From positions 576,371-640,370 of the forward strand of contig NZ_WJII01000002.1 in NCBI RefSeq assembly GCF_009649635.1: 64,000 nt of DNA. The letters run 5' to 3'. Within the stretch, counting starts at the first letter, position 1; each line of letters begins with the position of its first letter. The position numbers were made by a program, and so were the translations under genes. The stretch is from Microbacterium sp. SYP-A9085. Its GTDB lineage: Bacteria > Actinomycetota > Actinomycetes > Actinomycetales > Microbacteriaceae. Below are positions 2,946 to 63,998 of the stretch, piece after piece. The notes under the pieces were generated by a model. It did no database searches. It was not told where the DNA came from and saw only the letters and a program-made list of their open reading frames with translations.

Positions 2946-3551
2946 ATGACAGACAATTCCTCCTTCGACGAGCTCTTCGGCGGAGTGCGCCTGATGGCGA
3001 TCCTGCGGGGCATGGGCGTCGAGCGCAGTCTCGCCGTCGCGACCACCGCGTGGGACCTCGGCATCGAGGCCGTCGAGGTGCCGGTGCAGACCCCGACGGA
3101 TGTCGAGGCGCTGCACGCCGTCGCCGAGGCGGCGGCCGCGCGCGGCCTGCGGGTCGGCGCCGGCACCGTCGTGTCGCCGGAGCACGTGCGCCAGGCGAAG
3201 GACGCCGGCGCCGCGTTCACGGTGAGCCCCGGCTTCGACGTCGAGATAGTGCGCGCCTCGCACGCGGCGGGGATGCCGTCGCTGCCAGGCGTGGGCACCG
3301 CCACCGAGCTGCAGCTCGCGCTGCGCGAGGGCCTGACCTGGGTCAAGGCATTCCCCGCCTCCGTCCTCGGCGCGGGGTGGTTCGGCGCCATGCGCGGGCC
3401 GTTCCCGCAGGCGCGGTTCGTCGCCACGGGCGGGATGGACGCCGCCACCGCGCCGTCGTTCCTTCAGACCGGGGTGCGGGTCGTCGCCGTCGGCTCCGCC
3501 CTCGAGGACCCGGCGCAGCTGCCGGCGCTCGCGCAGCTGCTCGCACGATGA
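2946..3551 (+). CDS. eda: 2-dehydro-3-deoxy-6-phosphogluconate (KDPG) aldolase
   Basis: A 201-residue class I aldolase of the KDPG/KHG family, splitting KDPG to pyruvate and glyceraldehyde-3-phosphate. Landmarks are MAILRG (residues 17-22), the acid/base Glu44 in VEVP, GAGTV (71-75), SPGF (94-97), PGVGTATE, and the Schiff-base lysine in VKAFPAS (Lys134). Length is normal for the family. It sits between the KDG kinase and the PLP enzyme; its TGA overlaps the next start (ATGA). A related 4-hydroxy-2-oxoglutarate aldolase activity is possible. Confidence 0.9.
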   Translation: MTDNSSFDELFGGVRLMAILRGMGVERSLAVATTAWDLGIEAVEVPVQTPTDVEALHAVAEAAAARGLRVGAGTVVSPEHVRQAKDAGAAFTVSPGFDVEIVRASHAAGMPSLPGVGTATELQLALREGLTWVKAFPASVLGAGWFGAMRGPFPQARFVATGGMDAATAPSFLQTGVRVVAVGSALEDPAQLPALAQLLAR

Positions 3552-4861: not shown

Positions 4862-6469
4862 ATGAGCGGATCGCCGCGACCGGCCCGCACCGTCCTGCGC
4901 GGCGGGCGAGTCGTCGACGCGTCCGGCGAACGGACCGCGGACGTGGCCATTGTCGGCCGCGAGGTCGCCGCGGTGGGCGACATCCCCGCCCGCCCCGGCG
5001 ACACTGTCGTGGACTGCATCGGCCGGCTCGTCCTTCCGGGGATCGTCGACGCGCACTCGCACGCGGACGGGCTGCTCGGCGACGACGCCGTGCAGCGCGC
5101 GCTGCTGCGCCAGGGCGTCACGACCGTGATCGTCGGTCAGGACGGCGTGTCGTACGCGCCCGGCGACGGGGGGTACGCGGCGGAGTACTTCGCCGCCATC
5201 GACGGCGACCGGCCCGTCGCCCCCGGCGGCGGGGTCGCCGGCTACCTCGCCGCCGTCGACGGGGCGTCCCGGCTGAACGCCGCGTACCTGGTGCCCGCCG
5301 GCACCGTGCGGTTCGAGGTAGCCGGCCGGTCGCAGGCCTCCGCCGGCCCGGCGCAGCGGGCGGCGATGGTGGGGCTCGTCGAGGAGGGCCTGCGCGCCGG
5401 CGCGGTCGGCCTGTCCACGGGGCTGGACTACGTCCCGGGGATGTTCCAGGATGCCGACGAACTGGCCGCCCTGTGCGCGCCGGTCGCCCGGGCCGGCGGC
5501 GTGTACGTCAGCCACATGCGCGGCGGCTACGAGGCGAACGCGGCGGCGGGGATCGCCGAGATCGCCGCCATCGCTCGCGCGGCATCCGCCGCGACCGGCG
5601 CAGCGCTGCGGGTGCACGTCTCGCACTTCCACGCCGACGCCGACATAGTGCTCGCACAGCTCGACGCGCTGGAGGCCGCCGGGGTGGATGCCACGTTCGA
5701 CGCGTACCCCTATATCCGCGGCTGCAGCCTGATGGGAATGCCGCTGCTGCCGCCGGAGCTGTCGGCCCGGCCGGTGGACGACATCCTGCACGCCCTCGGT
5801 GACCCGGAGCAGCGCGACCGGCTGGCCCGCGAATGGTTCCCGCGCGTCGCACAGAACCCGAGCCTCGGCCCCGACTGGGCGAGCATGATCACGCTGTCGC
5901 ACCTGGCCGCGCCCGAGCTGGCGTGGGCGCACGGCCTGACCATCGCGGAGGCCGCCGCCCGCGCCGGCACCGACCCGATCACGTTCGCGCTCGATGCTCT
6001 GCACGCGTGCCGGCTGCGCGCGAACATCGTGATGGCCGTCCGCAACGAGCGCCCCGTCGCCGAGCTGGCCCGCATCTTCGCGCATCCCGCGCACATGGGC
6101 GGCTCGGACGGCATCTTCATCGGCGCGCACCCGCATCCGCGGGCCCGCGGGACGTTCGCCCGCTACCTGCGCGAGTACGTCCGCGAGACCGGCACGTGGA
6201 CGTGGCGGGATGCCGTCCGGCATCTGTCCACCGGCCCGGCCGCCCGGTTCGGCCTCGGGCGGCGCGGCGCTATAGCGCCCGGTGCCGTCGCCGACCTCAT
6301 CGTCGTGGACCCGGATGCCGTCGCCGACACCGCGACGTACGCGCAGCCGCAGGGCGAGTCGGTGGGCATCGACGACGTCTACGTGGGCGGCATCCCGGTG
6401 CTCGCCGGCGGCGAGCTCACCGACGCGCTGCCCGGCCGCGGCCTGCGCCGCGCCGGATCCGACCGTTGA
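4862..6469 (+). CDS. N-acyl-D-amino-acid deacylase (D-aminoacylase) family amidohydrolase
   Basis: A 535-residue amidohydrolase of the D-aminoacylase family, hydrolysing an N-acyl group. The first metal motif is DAHSHADG (His65, His67); further His ligands are visible in SHMRGGYE and VHVSHFH, and the late aspartate lies in GGSDGIFIG. Where characterised D-aminoacylases have GNCG with a metal-binding Cys, this protein has VGQDGVSYAP with Asp94 instead. ATG at 4862 follows a GAGGAGG site. In this operon it would supply the free amino acid (for example deacetylating N-acetylglucosaminate) to the preceding PLP enzyme; the exact substrate is not provable here. Confidence 0.85.
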   Translation: MSGSPRPARTVLRGGRVVDASGERTADVAIVGREVAAVGDIPARPGDTVVDCIGRLVLPGIVDAHSHADGLLGDDAVQRALLRQGVTTVIVGQDGVSYAPGDGGYAAEYFAAIDGDRPVAPGGGVAGYLAAVDGASRLNAAYLVPAGTVRFEVAGRSQASAGPAQRAAMVGLVEEGLRAGAVGLSTGLDYVPGMFQDADELAALCAPVARAGGVYVSHMRGGYEANAAAGIAEIAAIARAASAATGAALRVHVSHFHADADIVLAQLDALEAAGVDATFDAYPYIRGCSLMGMPLLPPELSARPVDDILHALGDPEQRDRLAREWFPRVAQNPSLGPDWASMITLSHLAAPELAWAHGLTIAEAAARAGTDPITFALDALHACRLRANIVMAVRNERPVAELARIFAHPAHMGGSDGIFIGAHPHPRARGTFARYLREYVRETGTWTWRDAVRHLSTGPAARFGLGRRGAIAPGAVADLIVVDPDAVADTATYAQPQGESVGIDDVYVGGIPVLAGGELTDALPGRGLRRAGSDR

Positions 6470-6879: not shown

Positions 6880-8733
<1,854 letters not shown>

Positions 8734-11353: not shown

Positions 11354-11425
11354 GCCGAACCCACCCGTCATTGCCGAACCCACTCGCCATAGCGGATGGG
11401 TTCGGCACCAGCGGGTGGGTTCGGC
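11354..11425. repeat. 72-bp nested palindrome, copy B
   Basis: Arms GCCGAACCCACC and GGTGGGTTCGGC, inner arms TGCCGAACCCA and TGGGTTCGGCA, loop containing GCCATAGC. It starts 26 nt after the amine oxidase stop and is paired with copy C 189 bp further on. Confidence 0.92.
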
Positions 11426-11542: not shown

Positions 11543-11614
11543 GCCGAACCCACCCGTCAGTGCCGAACCCACCCGCTATAGCCGATGGGTTCGGCACCAG
11601 CGGGTGGGTTCGGC
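11543..11614. repeat. 72-bp nested palindrome, copy C
   Basis: Same structure and orientation as copy B: outer arms GCCGAACCCACC/GGTGGGTTCGGC, inner GCCGAACCCA/TGGGTTCGGC, loop with CCGCTATAGCCGA. It ends 58 nt before the Ppx/GppA start codon. Confidence 0.92.
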
Positions 11615-43800: not shown

Positions 43801-43856
43801 CCCGCGCCGCCGCCGCCGCGCGGTGCCGCGCCGCGCGGTGCCGCGCCGCGCGGTTG

Positions 43857-43927
43857 GCCGAACCCACCCTCTATTGCCGAGCCCACTCGCTGTAGCGGAT
43901 GGGTTCGGCAACAGAGGGTGGGTTCGC
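43857..43927. repeat. 71-bp nested palindrome, copy D
   Basis: Outer arm GCCGAACCCACCC pairs with GGGTGGGTTCG, one base short at the right end; inner arms TGCCGAGCCCA and TGGGTTCGGCA; loop CGCTGTAGCGG. With the mid-arm pairing of CTCT and AGAG the whole element folds as one long hairpin. It is paired with copy E and lies between convergent genes. Confidence 0.9.
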
Positions 43928-43970: not shown

Positions 43971-44042
43971 GCCGAACCCACCCTCTATTGCCGAGCCCAC
44001 TCGCTGTAGCGGATGGGTTCGGCAACGAGAGGTGGATTCGGC
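43971..44042. repeat. 72-bp nested palindrome, copy E
   Basis: Near-identical to copy D over the first 55 bases and in the same orientation; the right outer arm carries a G-to-A change (GGTGGATTCGGC). Copy starts are 114 bp apart. With the rplQ terminator these two fill the 319-bp gene-free stretch 43801-44119, whose first part is a GC-rich run of CGCGGTGCCG repeats. Confidence 0.9.
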
Positions 44043-47417: not shown

Positions 47418-47508
47418 CTCGGCACCCGCCCGCGGCCCGCCGCGGCGCGGCATCCCGGCGCGGCGTCCCGGCGCGGCGCAGCCCGGCGCGGCGCCGCCCG
47501 CCCTGTTC

Positions 47509-47580
47509 GCCGAACCCACCCGCTGTTACCGAACCCACCAACTGTAGCGAGTGGGCTCGGCAGCAGCGGGTGGGTTCGGC
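47509..47580. repeat. 72-bp nested palindrome, copy F
   Basis: Outer arms GCCGAACCCACC/GGTGGGTTCGGC; inner arms ACCGAACCCAC and GTGGGCTCGGC. Its reverse complement matches copies D and E best, so it is inverted relative to copy G. It lies between the 3' end of the nuclease-like gene at 47608-48591 and the alpha-operon promoter. Confidence 0.88.
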
Positions 47581-47607: not shown

Positions 47608-48591
47608 TCAGCGGGGCGGGGAGATGTGGAAGGCGGCGAGGCGCCGCGCGAGCGCGGTCGGGGTCTGGATGTGCTGCATTCCCCACCGCGCCAGCGGGCG
47701 CCCCGTGGTGCCCCGAATCCAGTCCTCGCGCTCCTTCTCGGCCTGGAAGACGTCACGCGGGGTTGCGCCACGCACTACAGCGAGTTCGTGGTACTTCGTC
47801 TTGCCGTCGCTCTCACCCCAGGCATGCGCGTCATCCATCCCGAAGTCCACGGAGAAGAACCCTCCCCACGGATCTGGCACCGGGACCTGCAGCCGCGGGG
47901 CCGCGAAGCCGATCTCCGTCAGGCGGACCCGGCTGACGCTTTCCAGGGGCAGCTGGGCGCGGCCGTCGGCGAACTCGATGACGCGCCGCGCCTGCCGGAT
48001 GCCGCGGGCGCCGCGCGCGGCATCCACACGGTGCCTCATCGCGGCCTTCCAGCGCGCGGCGGCCCGCTCGTGGTAGGTGCGGGTGCGTTCATCCCATGCG
48101 ATGCGCCGCAACGCGGCATCCGCGCACGCGACGGCGGCATCGAACGAGAGGCTGCGGATCAGATCGAACACCGTGCGGTCGAGCGTCGTGCACGGGATCC
48201 CGAACAGTTCCATCGTGTCTTCGGCGGCGATCGTGACCTCGTGTCGGGCGACGAGTCGATCCGCGTGCACCCGGCCGTCCCCCGCGGGGGCCGCGACGTG
48301 CACGCGCTTGGGCCATGTGTTGTACAGGGGCAGTCCGTGTGCGACGACGGCGGACGCCCCCACGAACACAATGTCTGAGGAGCGGAGCCTCGCCGCGACG
48401 CCGATCACCTGCATGAGATGCCGCTCTTCGGGGTAGGCGCCCGTCCAATCCGCGCCGACGACGTAGGCGTCGCGGTGGATGCGCTCCAGGGTCCCGCCGG
48501 CCACGGCGGCGGCGATCGCATTGTCGCTCATGCCGCGCTGGCGCAGGATGCCGCGGTTCAGCACCTTCGCGCGGGTGGCATCGACATCCAT
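47608..48591 (-). CDS. AbiEi-like / DUF559-like protein with PD-(D/E)XK-type C-terminus (paralogue 1)
   Basis: 327 residues, function unproven. The N-terminal part resembles the winged-helix AbiEi antitoxin-like domain (RGILRQRGMSDNAIAAAV, LERIHRDAYVV), followed by a middle domain (FVGASAVVAHGLPLY, TTLDRTVFDLIRS). The C-terminal part has LESVSRVRLTEIGF (Glu217), SVDFG (Asp249) and GESDGKTKY (Glu260, Asp262, Lys264/Lys266), the spacing of a PD-(D/E)XK or Vsr-like nuclease core. No toxin partner is adjacent. It is bracketed by inverted palindromes F and G and lies just upstream of the alpha-operon promoter. The ATG start at 48591 is uncertain; GTG at 48612 is possible. Confidence 0.75.
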   Translation of the reverse strand: MDVDATRAKVLNRGILRQRGMSDNAIAAAVAGGTLERIHRDAYVVGADWTGAYPEERHLMQVIGVAARLRSSDIVFVGASAVVAHGLPLYNTWPKRVHVAAPAGDGRVHADRLVARHEVTIAAEDTMELFGIPCTTLDRTVFDLIRSLSFDAAVACADAALRRIAWDERTRTYHERAAARWKAAMRHRVDAARGARGIRQARRVIEFADGRAQLPLESVSRVRLTEIGFAAPRLQVPVPDPWGGFFSVDFGMDDAHAWGESDGKTKYHELAVVRGATPRDVFQAEKEREDWIRGTTGRPLARWGMQHIQTPTALARRLAAFHISPPR

Positions 48592-48713: not shown

Positions 48714-48785
48714 GCCGAACCCACCCGTGAATGCCGAACCCACCCGCTATGGCCGATGGGTTCGGCAACAGAGGGTGGGTTCGGC
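48714..48785. repeat. 72-bp nested palindrome, copy G
   Basis: Outer arms GCCGAACCCACCC/GGGTGGGTTCGGC; inner arms TGCCGAACCCA/TGGGTTCGGCA; loop CCGCTATGGCCGA. It lies upstream of the nuclease-like gene, 123 nt before its start, and downstream of the DsbA-like gene. A run of GCGGC units (48785-48835) follows it directly. Confidence 0.92.
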
Positions 48786-48835
48786 GCGGCGCGGCGCGGC
48801 GCGGCGCGCGGCGGCGCGGCGCGGCGCGCGCGGCG

Positions 48836-49528
48836 CTACTTGAACAGGGTGCCGAGCTGGGCGGGCTCGGGGAGCGTCGAGTTGGCGATGGTCGTGCCGT
48901 TGATCGCTATCGTCGGCGTGCCGATCCCGGCCGAGCCGGGCGCGACCGGCGTCTTCGGCGTCATCGACTGCACGTATTTGGCGTATTTGTGCGACGTGAT
49001 GTCCGCCTTCAAGGCGTCCGTCACGTTCACGCCGGCACCCTCCGCTATCGCGATGATCTGGTCGTCGGTCAGGCCGGTCGAGCCCTCCTCCGGCTGATTC
49101 TGGAACATCCCCTGCATGAATGCGTACGCCTTCGCCGGGTCGGCGTCGGCCACCGCGTACATGGCGCTCGCGGCACGCGACGAGTAGTCGGTGCCCTGCG
49201 AGCGGCTGTCCAAAATCGCTATCGGGTGCACGTTCAGCGTGATGGTGCCGTCGCTGACCAGGCCCTGGATCGAGGAGCCGTACGACTGCTCGAACTGCCC
49301 ACAGATCGGGCACATGAAGTCGATGTAGGTGTCCATCGTCTTCGAGCCGCTGCCGAACGCTATCGCCCCGGTCTCGGTGTTCACGGTCTGGCTGCTGGGC
49401 GCGGCGCCCGGGCCGGAGGCGGCGCTGTTGATGGCGATCACGATGCCGGTCACCACGGCCAGCACCACCACCGCCGCCACGCTCACCCAGATGGCGAACC
49501 AGTTCGTCTTGCGCAAAGTGCTGGCCAT
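48836..49528 (-). CDS. Membrane-anchored thioredoxin-fold (DsbA-like) disulfide oxidoreductase
   Basis: 230 residues: an N-terminal signal anchor (about 11-33), an extracytoplasmic thioredoxin fold with the active site CPIC (Cys73, Cys76) in DFMCPICGQFEQSYG, an inserted helical domain, and the cis-proline loop GIGTPTIAING. It would form or shuffle disulfides in exported proteins. The start is the ATG at 49528 with GAGGAC upstream. It follows map after 13 nt and closes the secY-adk-map unit. Confidence 0.9.
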   Translation of the reverse strand: MASTLRKTNWFAIWVSVAAVVVLAVVTGIVIAINSAASGPGAAPSSQTVNTETGAIAFGSGSKTMDTYIDFMCPICGQFEQSYGSSIQGLVSDGTITLNVHPIAILDSRSQGTDYSSRAASAMYAVADADPAKAYAFMQGMFQNQPEEGSTGLTDDQIIAIAEGAGVNVTDALKADITSHKYAKYVQSMTPKTPVAPGSAGIGTPTIAINGTTIANSTLPEPAQLGTLFK

Positions 49529-62387: not shown

Positions 62388-62450
62388 ACCGACCCCCTCT
62401 CCCCCCGCATCTCCCCTCGGTTGCGTCTCTTCTCGGCTGCGTCTCTTCTC

Positions 62451-62565
62451 GCGAGACAGCCCCCAACTTCGCGAGACATCCCCCAAGTCCGCGAGGCAGC
62501 CCTCAAGTTCGCGAGGCAGCCCCCAAGTTCGCGAGGCAGCCCCCAAGTTCGCGAGGCAGCCCCCA
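62451..62565. repeat. 20-bp tandem repeat array, left (about 5.7 units)
   Basis: Consecutive 20-bp units of the type CCCCAAGTTCGCGAGGCAGC, with small changes in the first units (AACTTC, AAGTCC, GAGACATC). The unit's reverse complement differs from the right-array unit (63641-63834) at only about two of 20 positions, so the arrays are inverted copies. The array lies 23 nt beyond the 3' end of the nuclease-like gene. Just before it, a TGCGTCTCTTCTCGG-like 16-mer occurs twice. Confidence 0.9.
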
Positions 62566-62587
62566 GCGGGCCGGCTGTGATCGGCGT

Positions 62588-63544
62588 TCAGCAGAACCCG
62601 ATGGATCGGAGGAAGCGGGCGAAGTCGTCGATCGACGCCATCTGCTCGAACCCCCAGCGGTCACAGCGCCACTGCGTGGCGGACTCGACCTTCCGCTGTC
62701 GCGCGTCTTGGGCCCTCCGGATGTCCTCGCTCGAGCGCCCAGCGAGAAGCGCCGGATCGCTGTACTTGATCAGTCCATCGAACTCCGCCCACCGGCCGAG
62801 CCCCGGCCAGCAGAGGTCGAGCAGCGCGTAGGTGCCGTCTGCGAAGTCGACCCGGTACTGCAGCACCGGGTCGGCCACGCCCAGCTGCCAGCACCACAGG
62901 CGCGACAGCGACTCGCCGGGCGATCCCGCGCGGCCGTCCGCGAATTCGACGACGAAGCGAGCCTGCCGGATCCCGCGAGCGCCGGCGTGGGCGATGACGC
63001 GACGGCGCACGCGTGCGCGGAACTCCGAGTCCGCAGCGATGTCGTACGTGTTGTGGATGTCGTCCCATGCGACGGCGTGGAGCGCGGCATCCATCACCAT
63101 CACGGCGGTCTCGACGGACCCGAGCCGGATGACGTCGTATACCGTGCGTTCCAGGGATGTCGACCGCAGCCCCTCCAGCTCGACGATGTCGTCGTCCGGG
63201 ACCGGAACATGGTGCCGACGCACGTCCGCAACGCTGCGTCGCCCGCGGACATCCGGGCAGATGACGTCGATCCGATCGGCGCGCACCTTGTAGAGCGGGA
63301 GGCCGTGGAGCGCGGCGGCCGTCGCGTAGGCGAAGACGCCCGTCTCGACACGCGTCAGCTCCTGGACCGCGTGCGCACGAGTGCGCAGCCGGGCGTCGCC
63401 GAACAGATCCGACCACTCCTGCTCGAGCACATACGCACCGCGATGAACACGCATGAGATCTCCGGGCTCCACGCCCACGCGCGGACGCACCCACGGACGC
63501 TGAGGGGCCGGAACGATCCGTGCAGATGACTGCGTCTGGTGCAT
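62588..63544 (-). CDS. AbiEi-like / DUF559-like protein with PD-(D/E)XK-type C-terminus (paralogue 2)
   Basis: 318 residues, function unproven. It is homologous to the protein at 47608-48591: both share RGIRQAR.V.EFADGRA, HGLPLY, and an LERTVYD/LDRTVFD segment. The N-terminus reads like the AbiEi antitoxin-type domain (PGDLMRVHRGAYVL). The nuclease-like part has GESLSRLW (Glu211), ALLDL (Asp243) and AEFDGLIKY (Glu254, Asp256, Lys260). No partner toxin gene is adjacent. The gene is bracketed by inverted 20-bp repeat arrays and lies between the 5S rRNA and the S10 promoter. The ATG at 63544 has GGTGGATGA directly upstream. Confidence 0.78.
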   Translation of the reverse strand: MHQTQSSARIVPAPQRPWVRPRVGVEPGDLMRVHRGAYVLEQEWSDLFGDARLRTRAHAVQELTRVETGVFAYATAAALHGLPLYKVRADRIDVICPDVRGRRSVADVRRHHVPVPDDDIVELEGLRSTSLERTVYDVIRLGSVETAVMVMDAALHAVAWDDIHNTYDIAADSEFRARVRRRVIAHAGARGIRQARFVVEFADGRAGSPGESLSRLWCWQLGVADPVLQYRVDFADGTYALLDLCWPGLGRWAEFDGLIKYSDPALLAGRSSEDIRRAQDARQRKVESATQWRCDRWGFEQMASIDDFARFLRSIGFC

Positions 63545-63640
63545 TCATCCACCATGTCGGAACCCACGCATGGGATCCGTGGAGCCGGCACATCTGTGCA
63601 GAACCAGCCGGCGACCCGCGCCTGGGGAGGACGCGACGCC

Positions 63641-63834
63641 GGGATGCCTCGCGAACTTCGGGGATGCCTCGCGAAGTTCGGGGATGCCTCGCGAACTTCG
63701 GGGATGCCTCGCGAACTTCGGGGATGCCTCGCGAACTTCGGGGATGCCTCGCGAACTTCGGGGATGCCTCGCGAACTTCGGGGATGCCTCGCGAAGTTCG
63801 GGGATGCCTCGCGAAGTTCGGGGATGCCTCGCGT
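63641..63834. repeat. 20-bp tandem repeat array, right (9 units plus a partial)
   Basis: Units GGGATGCCTCGCGAACTTCG repeat with exact 20-bp periodicity from 63641; the second, eighth and ninth units read GCGAAGTTCG instead. The C/G change falls at the centre of the palindrome CGAA-N-TTCG and leaves its symmetry intact. A partial unit ends in GCGTTAACGC just before the 5S terminator. With the 5S terminator it fills most of the gene-free stretch 63545-63880; the remaining 96 bp before the nuclease-like gene hold its presumed promoter. Confidence 0.95.
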
Positions 63835-63838
63835 TAAC

Positions 63839-63873
63839 GCAAAGAAGCCGCCCCGGAGGGGCGGCTTCTTTGC
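63839..63873 (-). terminator. Terminator of the rRNA operon
   Basis: GCAAAGAAGCCGCCCC and GGGGCGGCTTCTTTGC form a perfect 16-bp stem with a 3-nt loop, just beyond the 5S 3' end. The T-rich half of the stem (CTTCTTTG) serves as the tail. Confidence 0.9.
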
Positions 63874-63880
63874 AATGGAA

Positions 63881-63998
63881 GTCCGGCGGTGTCCTACTCT
63901 CCCACAGGGTCGCCCCTGCAGTACCATCGGCGCTGAGAGGCTTAGCTTCCGGGTTCGGAATGGGACCGGGCGTTTCCCTCTCGCTATGGCCGCCGAAA
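63881..63998 (-). rRNA. rrf: 5S ribosomal RNA
   Basis: Read on the minus strand, the sequence has the 5S layout: GGCGGCCATAGCG at the 5' end, CGGTCCCATTCCGAACCCGG in loops B/C, GCGCCGATGGTACTGC and GGGAGAGTAGGACACCGCC at the 3' end. About 117 nt; the 5' boundary is close to the window edge, so a base or two may be missing. It is presumably the last gene of an rrn operon continuing to the right. Confidence 0.95.

Follow-up and report, generated by a model that had tools for sequence, protein, structure and literature searches.

We find that a family of AbiEi-like proteins is associated with private, dispersed hairpin repeats, an association that we hold to be nearly certain. One member is encoded in the 64,000-nucleotide stretch of Microbacterium sp. 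SYP-A9085 DNA analysed here (the window). We observe directly that repeats bracket this gene, that the bracket recurs with different repeats at most of the related genes tested, that the repeats are dispersed, the strays examined being intergenic and sharp-ended with no target duplication, that repeat and protein change in parallel, and that the locus is inherited in place in the pairs compared. The explanation we favour, at a probability of about 0.5, is that this AbiEi-like, nuclease-like protein recognises and cuts its private repeat and so spreads and maintains it as non-autonomous elements, in the fashion of RAYTs and REPINs; recognition of the repeat by the window protein is likely, and cutting and spreading are steps that we infer.

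The window gene and its arrays are located as follows:

62449..62565, + strand: left array of a 20-bp repeat, 5.8 units, at the gene's 3' end (Tandem Repeats Finder)
62588..63544, − strand: window gene, encoding a 318-aa AbiEi-like protein (ORF)
63641..63833, − strand: right array of the 20-bp repeat, inverted, 9.6 units, at the gene's 5' end (Tandem Repeats Finder)

Tandem Repeats Finder gives a period of 20 for both, with 5.8 copies at 91% matches on the left (unit TCGCGAGGCAGCCCCCAAGT) and 9.6 copies at 98% matches on the right (unit GGGATGCCTCGCGAACTTCG), and the right-array unit is the reverse complement of the left-array unit with about 2 differences. The inverted arrays claimed around 62588–63544 in the original prediction are thus real, and its description of the units as reverse complements that differ at about two positions is borne out. 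Read on the + strand, the left-array units carry G at position 10 in 5 of 6 cases and C at position 15; in the right-array units these positions are T and G. A period-16 tandem repeat, CTCGGCTGCGTCTCTT (62416–62451, 2.2 copies; Tandem Repeats Finder), abuts the outer end of the left array. Further left lie what we take to be ribosomal protein genes, and to the right of the gene and the right array is a 5S rRNA gene (63881–63997), 3 bases beyond which the contig ends. Between the right array and this gene, at 63838–63876, a G+C-rich inverted repeat (GAAGCCGCCCC..GGGGCGGCTTCTTT) followed by T's looks terminator-like by eye.

The PADLOC models assign AbiEi both to the window protein (E 2.4e-11) and to its paralogue in the window (E 9.3e-10). 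Pfam contains no family that matches the window protein, DUF559 included, NCBIfam gives no match for it, and the Pfam matches of the paralogue are all below threshold, so that of the earlier description as AbiEi/DUF559-like the first half holds and the second finds no support in Pfam. The predicted fold of the window protein, compared with known structures by VIA-align, combines an AbiEi-like part with a Vsr/I-Bth0305I-like nuclease, and residues ~207–318 are predicted to form a Vsr/EDxHD-type nuclease domain; a Foldseek search of the PDB returns nothing at E 0.001 or better, and the fold claims rest on the VIA-align comparison. Residues E211, D243, E254 and G257 are kept in 22 of 22 aligned members, and D256 and K260 in at least 90%. 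Those of the listed relatives of the window protein that have a name are mostly called 'hypothetical protein' and sometimes AbiEi antitoxin.

The paralogue, which is 38% identical to the window protein, has a hairpin repeat of its own:

47608..48591, − strand: paralogue, 327 aa, with predicted N-terminal winged helix, AbiEi-like domain and nuclease-like domain
47509..47580, unstranded: paralogue's hairpin repeat, 3' side, GCCGAACCCACCC family
48714..48785, unstranded: paralogue's hairpin repeat, 5' side
11354..11425, unstranded: stray copy of the paralogue-type hairpin repeat (G000:C5:587724-587795)
11543..11614, unstranded: stray copy of the paralogue-type hairpin repeat (G000:C5:587913-587984)
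43856..43926, unstranded: stray copy of the paralogue-type hairpin repeat (G000:C5:620226-620296)
43971..44042, unstranded: stray copy of the paralogue-type hairpin repeat (G000:C5:620341-620412)

Both paralogues are therefore enclosed by inverted repeat material, as first described, with the amendment that each has a private repeat on its two sides and that the repeats differ between them. Simple CCGCG/CGGCG repeats lie beside hairpins of the paralogue family at 43802–43851, 47431–47502 and 48782–48836, and also fall within the paralogue's flank-to-flank alignment.

The same arrangement recurs throughout the source genome (2.92 Mb), which contains six genes of the protein family by protein search and nine by class profile. 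The six genes of the protein-search set were used for flank analysis, and at 6 of 6 we find private repeats on both sides: alignment of left against right flank gives own-pair scores of 80, 49, 36, 44, 72 and 54, as compared with at most 20 for the 30 cross pairs taken between loci. Bracketing of this kind is indeed unlikely to be chance, as had been supposed. The repeat is different for each gene: the window gene has the 20-bp unit, the paralogue GCCGAACCCACCC hairpins, L004 GTGAGGTGGCACGAATGGCGGGAAT, L006 GAGAGTGCATCTGACGG, and the rest yet others. A gene-level control took in genes of 450–2000 bp in the window and in 27 other stretches (26 from the source genome, picked for the repeats or family genes in them, and one from G031; L069–L071, which are single-unit matches, served as control stretches only), and here 5 of 147 testable genes reach a score of 22, all five of them known family members, as against 0 of the 142 other genes.

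A homologue is present in 51 of 59 genomes of the genus and 69 of 100 of the taxonomic family, and a profile search detects genes of the protein family in 154 of 197 genomes of the class. Genus and family supplied 163 loci, of which 149 remained once each place was counted a single time; a further 11, in which one flank was shorter than 350 bp, were set aside, leaving 138. At a threshold of 22, picked after the first runs had been viewed, 104 of these 138 loci have flanking repeats; the same score is reached by none of the 134 outer-flank control pairs, drawn from farther out at these loci, and by 32 of the 1370 cross pairs, the highest-scoring of which we take to reflect shared neighbouring genes; at stricter cut-offs of 25 and 30 the counts are 98 and 81 of 138, with 0 of 134 outer controls each time. 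This result merges and supersedes two partial tests (76/104 and 14/19), and an earlier test of 35 loci gave 27 at 22 or more, with 5.5% of 1190 cross pairs. In a class-wide set, three members of which (L260, L262, L263) are places already in the 138-locus set and one of which (L277) offers just 121 bp of right flank, 25 of 29 loci reach the threshold (outer control 0/27; cross pairs 44/812); 24 of the 29 come from outside the window's taxonomic family, and 20 of these 24 reach the threshold. At the weaker loci L273 and L275 the flank match could be coding similarity. At many class-wide loci the repeat takes the form of a long hairpin or of inverted ends; one family of the class, for instance, repeatedly shows GAAATGATCACGTTCA ends. 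The flanking repeat is absent at about a quarter of loci, which counts against the favoured explanation. The case raised in the original prediction as one that would tell against it, namely that most homologues lack flanking arrays, is thus not what we find, and the bracket is tied to the gene family by the own-genome, 138-locus and class-wide counts and by its absence from the control genes. Chance and plain tandem-repeat slippage are ruled out as explanations by the cross-pair, outer-flank and gene-level controls.

The repeats also occur far from their genes. The exact 13-base core of the 20-bp unit, CGCGAGRCANCCC, is present in 160 copies in the source genome (81 and 79 by strand; reversed-pattern control, 0), which establishes the unit as genome-wide, and in 0–7 copies per genome in 58 further members of the genus, about the chance level given by the control pattern. 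Wide occurrence of the arrays without any such gene had been put forward beforehand as a result that would refute the prediction; to the letter this is what is seen, yet it is also what is expected of a dispersed element. The other five repeat families of the source genome are found at 2, 5, 6, 8 and 15 places away from their own gene. Stray copies of the L005 and L003 types stand in rows of three, ~130–165 bp apart (G000:C10:153543-153893 and G000:C1:20044-20435).

Among the matches listed for 12 further genomes, a repeat type occurs chiefly in the genome that carries its gene. Places away from the gene, counted by hand and all lower bounds, number at least 19 in G014, 14 in G026, 10 in G035, 9 in G009, 6 in G054, 5 in G025 (including one just 1.9 kb away from its gene), 3 each in G051 and G033, 2 each in G036 and G013, and 1 in G031, with 0 among the matches listed in G006. 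Foreign repeats are present at no fewer than 11 places in G031 (L074 type) and at least 3 in G033 (L089 type, one matching both types); among the matches listed, a single foreign one each belongs to G036 and G025. At homologous sites in other genomes the 20-bp element of the source genome is absent in 9 of 9 cases for a first site and 3 of 3 for a second, these 12 loci coming from a longer list in which the first-site genomes were picked with flanks within ~300 bp, a choice that favours empty sites; the absence agrees with the near-chance core counts in other genomes of the genus, and does not itself give exact borders. At L233 (G164:C1:1135700-1137000), one of the nine first-site loci, between two converging genes, another inverted repeat, GAGGCATCCAC, stands where the source genome has the 20-bp element L050, and one intergenic site may thus be used by different repeat families.

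Twenty-one stray 20-bp clusters among the matches listed were examined. None is spanned by an ORF in a simple caller (0/21), though in two cases the cluster runs into the end of an ORF, by 9 and 29 bases. The neighbouring genes are in mixed orientations by this crude caller, and no preference of the strays for sites between converging genes is claimed. The order found in the window, a + arm followed by a − arm, recurs in 15 of 21 with two or more units per arm. When these 15 are taken together with the window element, the commonest base differs between the arms at unit position 10 in 13 of 16 and at position 15 in 15 of 16, so that the arms carry different unit types and pair with regular mismatches; such mismatches could mark left and right ends, guide a cut or protect the palindrome. 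The outer ends are sharp: among twelve elements (that of the window and 11 strays), one starts with CACGAG and the others with CGCGAG, and all end with CTCGCG except L053, whose printed end coordinate fell short. By eye, no direct repeat indicative of target duplication is seen outside these twelve, nor any gene remnant in the short spacers of a few stray elements viewed. Folding of five elements gives z of −7.9 to −12.6. One stretch (L042, G000:C1:706000-717000) contains three 20-bp clusters ~2 kb apart with other ORFs between them, a + array (3296–3448), a two-armed form (5354–5508) and a − array (7362–7434); L041, L044 and L045 likewise have one-armed forms.

Repeat and protein change in parallel. 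Among the 104 repeat-bearing loci, repeat similarity of 22 or more is found in 31 of 102 pairs at protein identity of at least 60%, in 6 of 262 at 50–60% and in 8 of 4992 below 50%. The repeat therefore changes alongside the protein, and once members have diverged their repeats are unrelated, although common ancestry of the loci may account for some of this parallel. In eight similar pairs compared over the whole locus, 5 align over nearly its full length (L100/L165 at 90%, L130/L132 at 89%, L079/L132, L100/L157 and L085/L132, where L079 is the same place as L130) and 3 share parts, which indicates that in these pairs the gene stays in place while the repeat drifts. This comparison weakens the view that gene and both arrays travel as one composite transposon, a possibility raised at the outset and one that would fit both the inverted repeats with sharp outer ends and the long inverted ends in other families of the class. 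We consider it very unlikely, since near-identical gene copies are absent from the source genome, where the five other members are 29–38% identical to the window protein, and from G306, where six others are 29–32% identical to the best member there; in addition, the 21 stray clusters all stand at least 10 kb away from the six family genes of the source genome, and the stray elements inspected for it show no target duplication. The other two possibilities raised, that the repeats are the protein's binding sites or are expanded by its activity, are consistent with the dispersal of the repeats and with their covariation with the protein.

If the gene were instead a passenger that merely tends to sit among repeats that slippage or some unrelated enzyme has spread, the presence of private repeats on both flanks at 104 of 138 loci and at none of the 142 other genes would be hard to explain, and we regard this reading as highly improbable. 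It draws on G031, which has many arrays of the L074 type, including one-way arrays of CGAGTGAGTATTCGCG at L223 (G031:C1:3055000-3068500), and in which an L074-like gene was not found; these may have outlived a lost gene or point to a different way of spreading, and they count against the favoured reading. Y1_Tnp (PF01797), the one transposase type searched for, is found in 0 of 13 genomes as compared with 5 of 14 control genomes, which also speaks against a passenger, and a RAYT-type transposase was rejected as the spreading enzyme in these genomes. A further reading, which we think rather unlikely, makes the protein a DNA-binding regulator or chromosome organiser whose flanking repeats are self-regulation operators and whose strays are further binding sites or transcription stops, the repeats having spread by another route and the nuclease-like part having another job. 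PMC3985639 describes an AbiEi that represses its own promoter through inverted repeats, a 20-bp spacing would set neighbouring units on one helix face, and several stray elements sit a few bases past the end of a called gene, all as a regulator would have it; set against these are the repeats on both sides of the gene, beyond the promoter alone, the intergenic position of stray copies with mixed orientations of neighbouring genes (both by a crude gene caller), and the retention of the presumed nuclease-site residues in all or nearly all of the 22 aligned members.

On the favoured reading, that the protein cuts and spreads its own repeat, the AbiEi-like part would read the private unit, by analogy with the binding of inverted repeats by a known AbiEi, and pairing of the two inverted arms would give a hairpin or cruciform that the predicted nuclease part may cut; repair or copying of the cut could then leave copies of the element at new sites, and the gene might be kept for the element's sake or for a use of the protein to the cell. 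Extended to the class, the proposal is of a previously undescribed actinomycete system in which private hairpins are copied around the genome by a fusion of an AbiEi-like reader with a Vsr-type nuclease, a second, independently evolved REPIN/RAYT-like solution in which each gene has its own DNA code word; this we put forward tentatively, at just short of an even chance. A literature search, beyond the reach of which lay most subscription papers and preprints, returned no report tying AbiEi, DUF559 or Vsr-like proteins to dispersed repeats. If each gene of the family has a dispersed hairpin repeat of its own, some of the intergenic repeats in these genomes can be assigned an owner, a large orphan protein family gains a likely role, and the spread of bacterial palindromic repeats becomes open to tests on an enzyme that has no relation to RAYT. 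For every protein the neighbouring repeat is the predicted recognition sequence, which makes the claim directly testable, and the family offers a large set of nuclease/sequence pairs.

Four known systems invite comparison. Insertion sequences and MITEs likewise have inverted ends and short gene-free relatives dispersed between genes, but here the protein has no known transposase domain, no target duplication is seen and the gene is not seen to be multiplied. With AbiE type IV toxin-antitoxin systems the window protein shares the AbiEi-like domain (PADLOC profiles and predicted fold), and for a known AbiEi, binding to inverted repeats in its own promoter is described (PMC3985639); unlike AbiE, the window gene lacks an adjacent AbiEii nucleotidyltransferase toxin gene, going by the ORF list and the match to 5S rRNA, and it encodes an additional nuclease-like domain and has dispersed repeats. 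The EDxHD homing endonuclease I-Bth0305I and Vsr resemble residues 207–318 in predicted fold and in the conserved acidic residues, but the window gene is flanked by repeat arrays whose repeats also occur elsewhere, and a single interrupted target site is not seen.

The closest parallels are with REPIN-RAYT systems (TnpA-REP, REPtron), where, on the RAYT side, PMC3116915 and PMC8266576 likewise describe a gene flanked by its own palindromic repeat, intergenic dispersal of that repeat as inverted pairs, several gene/repeat types per genome, covariation of repeat and enzyme, and a gene that mostly stays in place. RAYTs are single-copy genes, each with its own REPIN type (PMC3116915), and a single-copy gene with a cognate flanking palindrome is also what we find here, at all six own genes and most of the 138 loci, as is intergenic dispersal mostly as inverted pairs (the 15 of 21 stray clusters with two or more units per arm). 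The GTAG or CGTC tag is absent from the window's 20-bp unit, the one unit read for it, and GTAG is present in some other repeats, for example L096. The enzyme here is AbiEi-like with a predicted Vsr-type nuclease, unlike RAYT, which is an HUH Y1 transposase (PF01797); the window system thus works like a REPIN-RAYT system, yet with an enzyme other than the one that defines that family.
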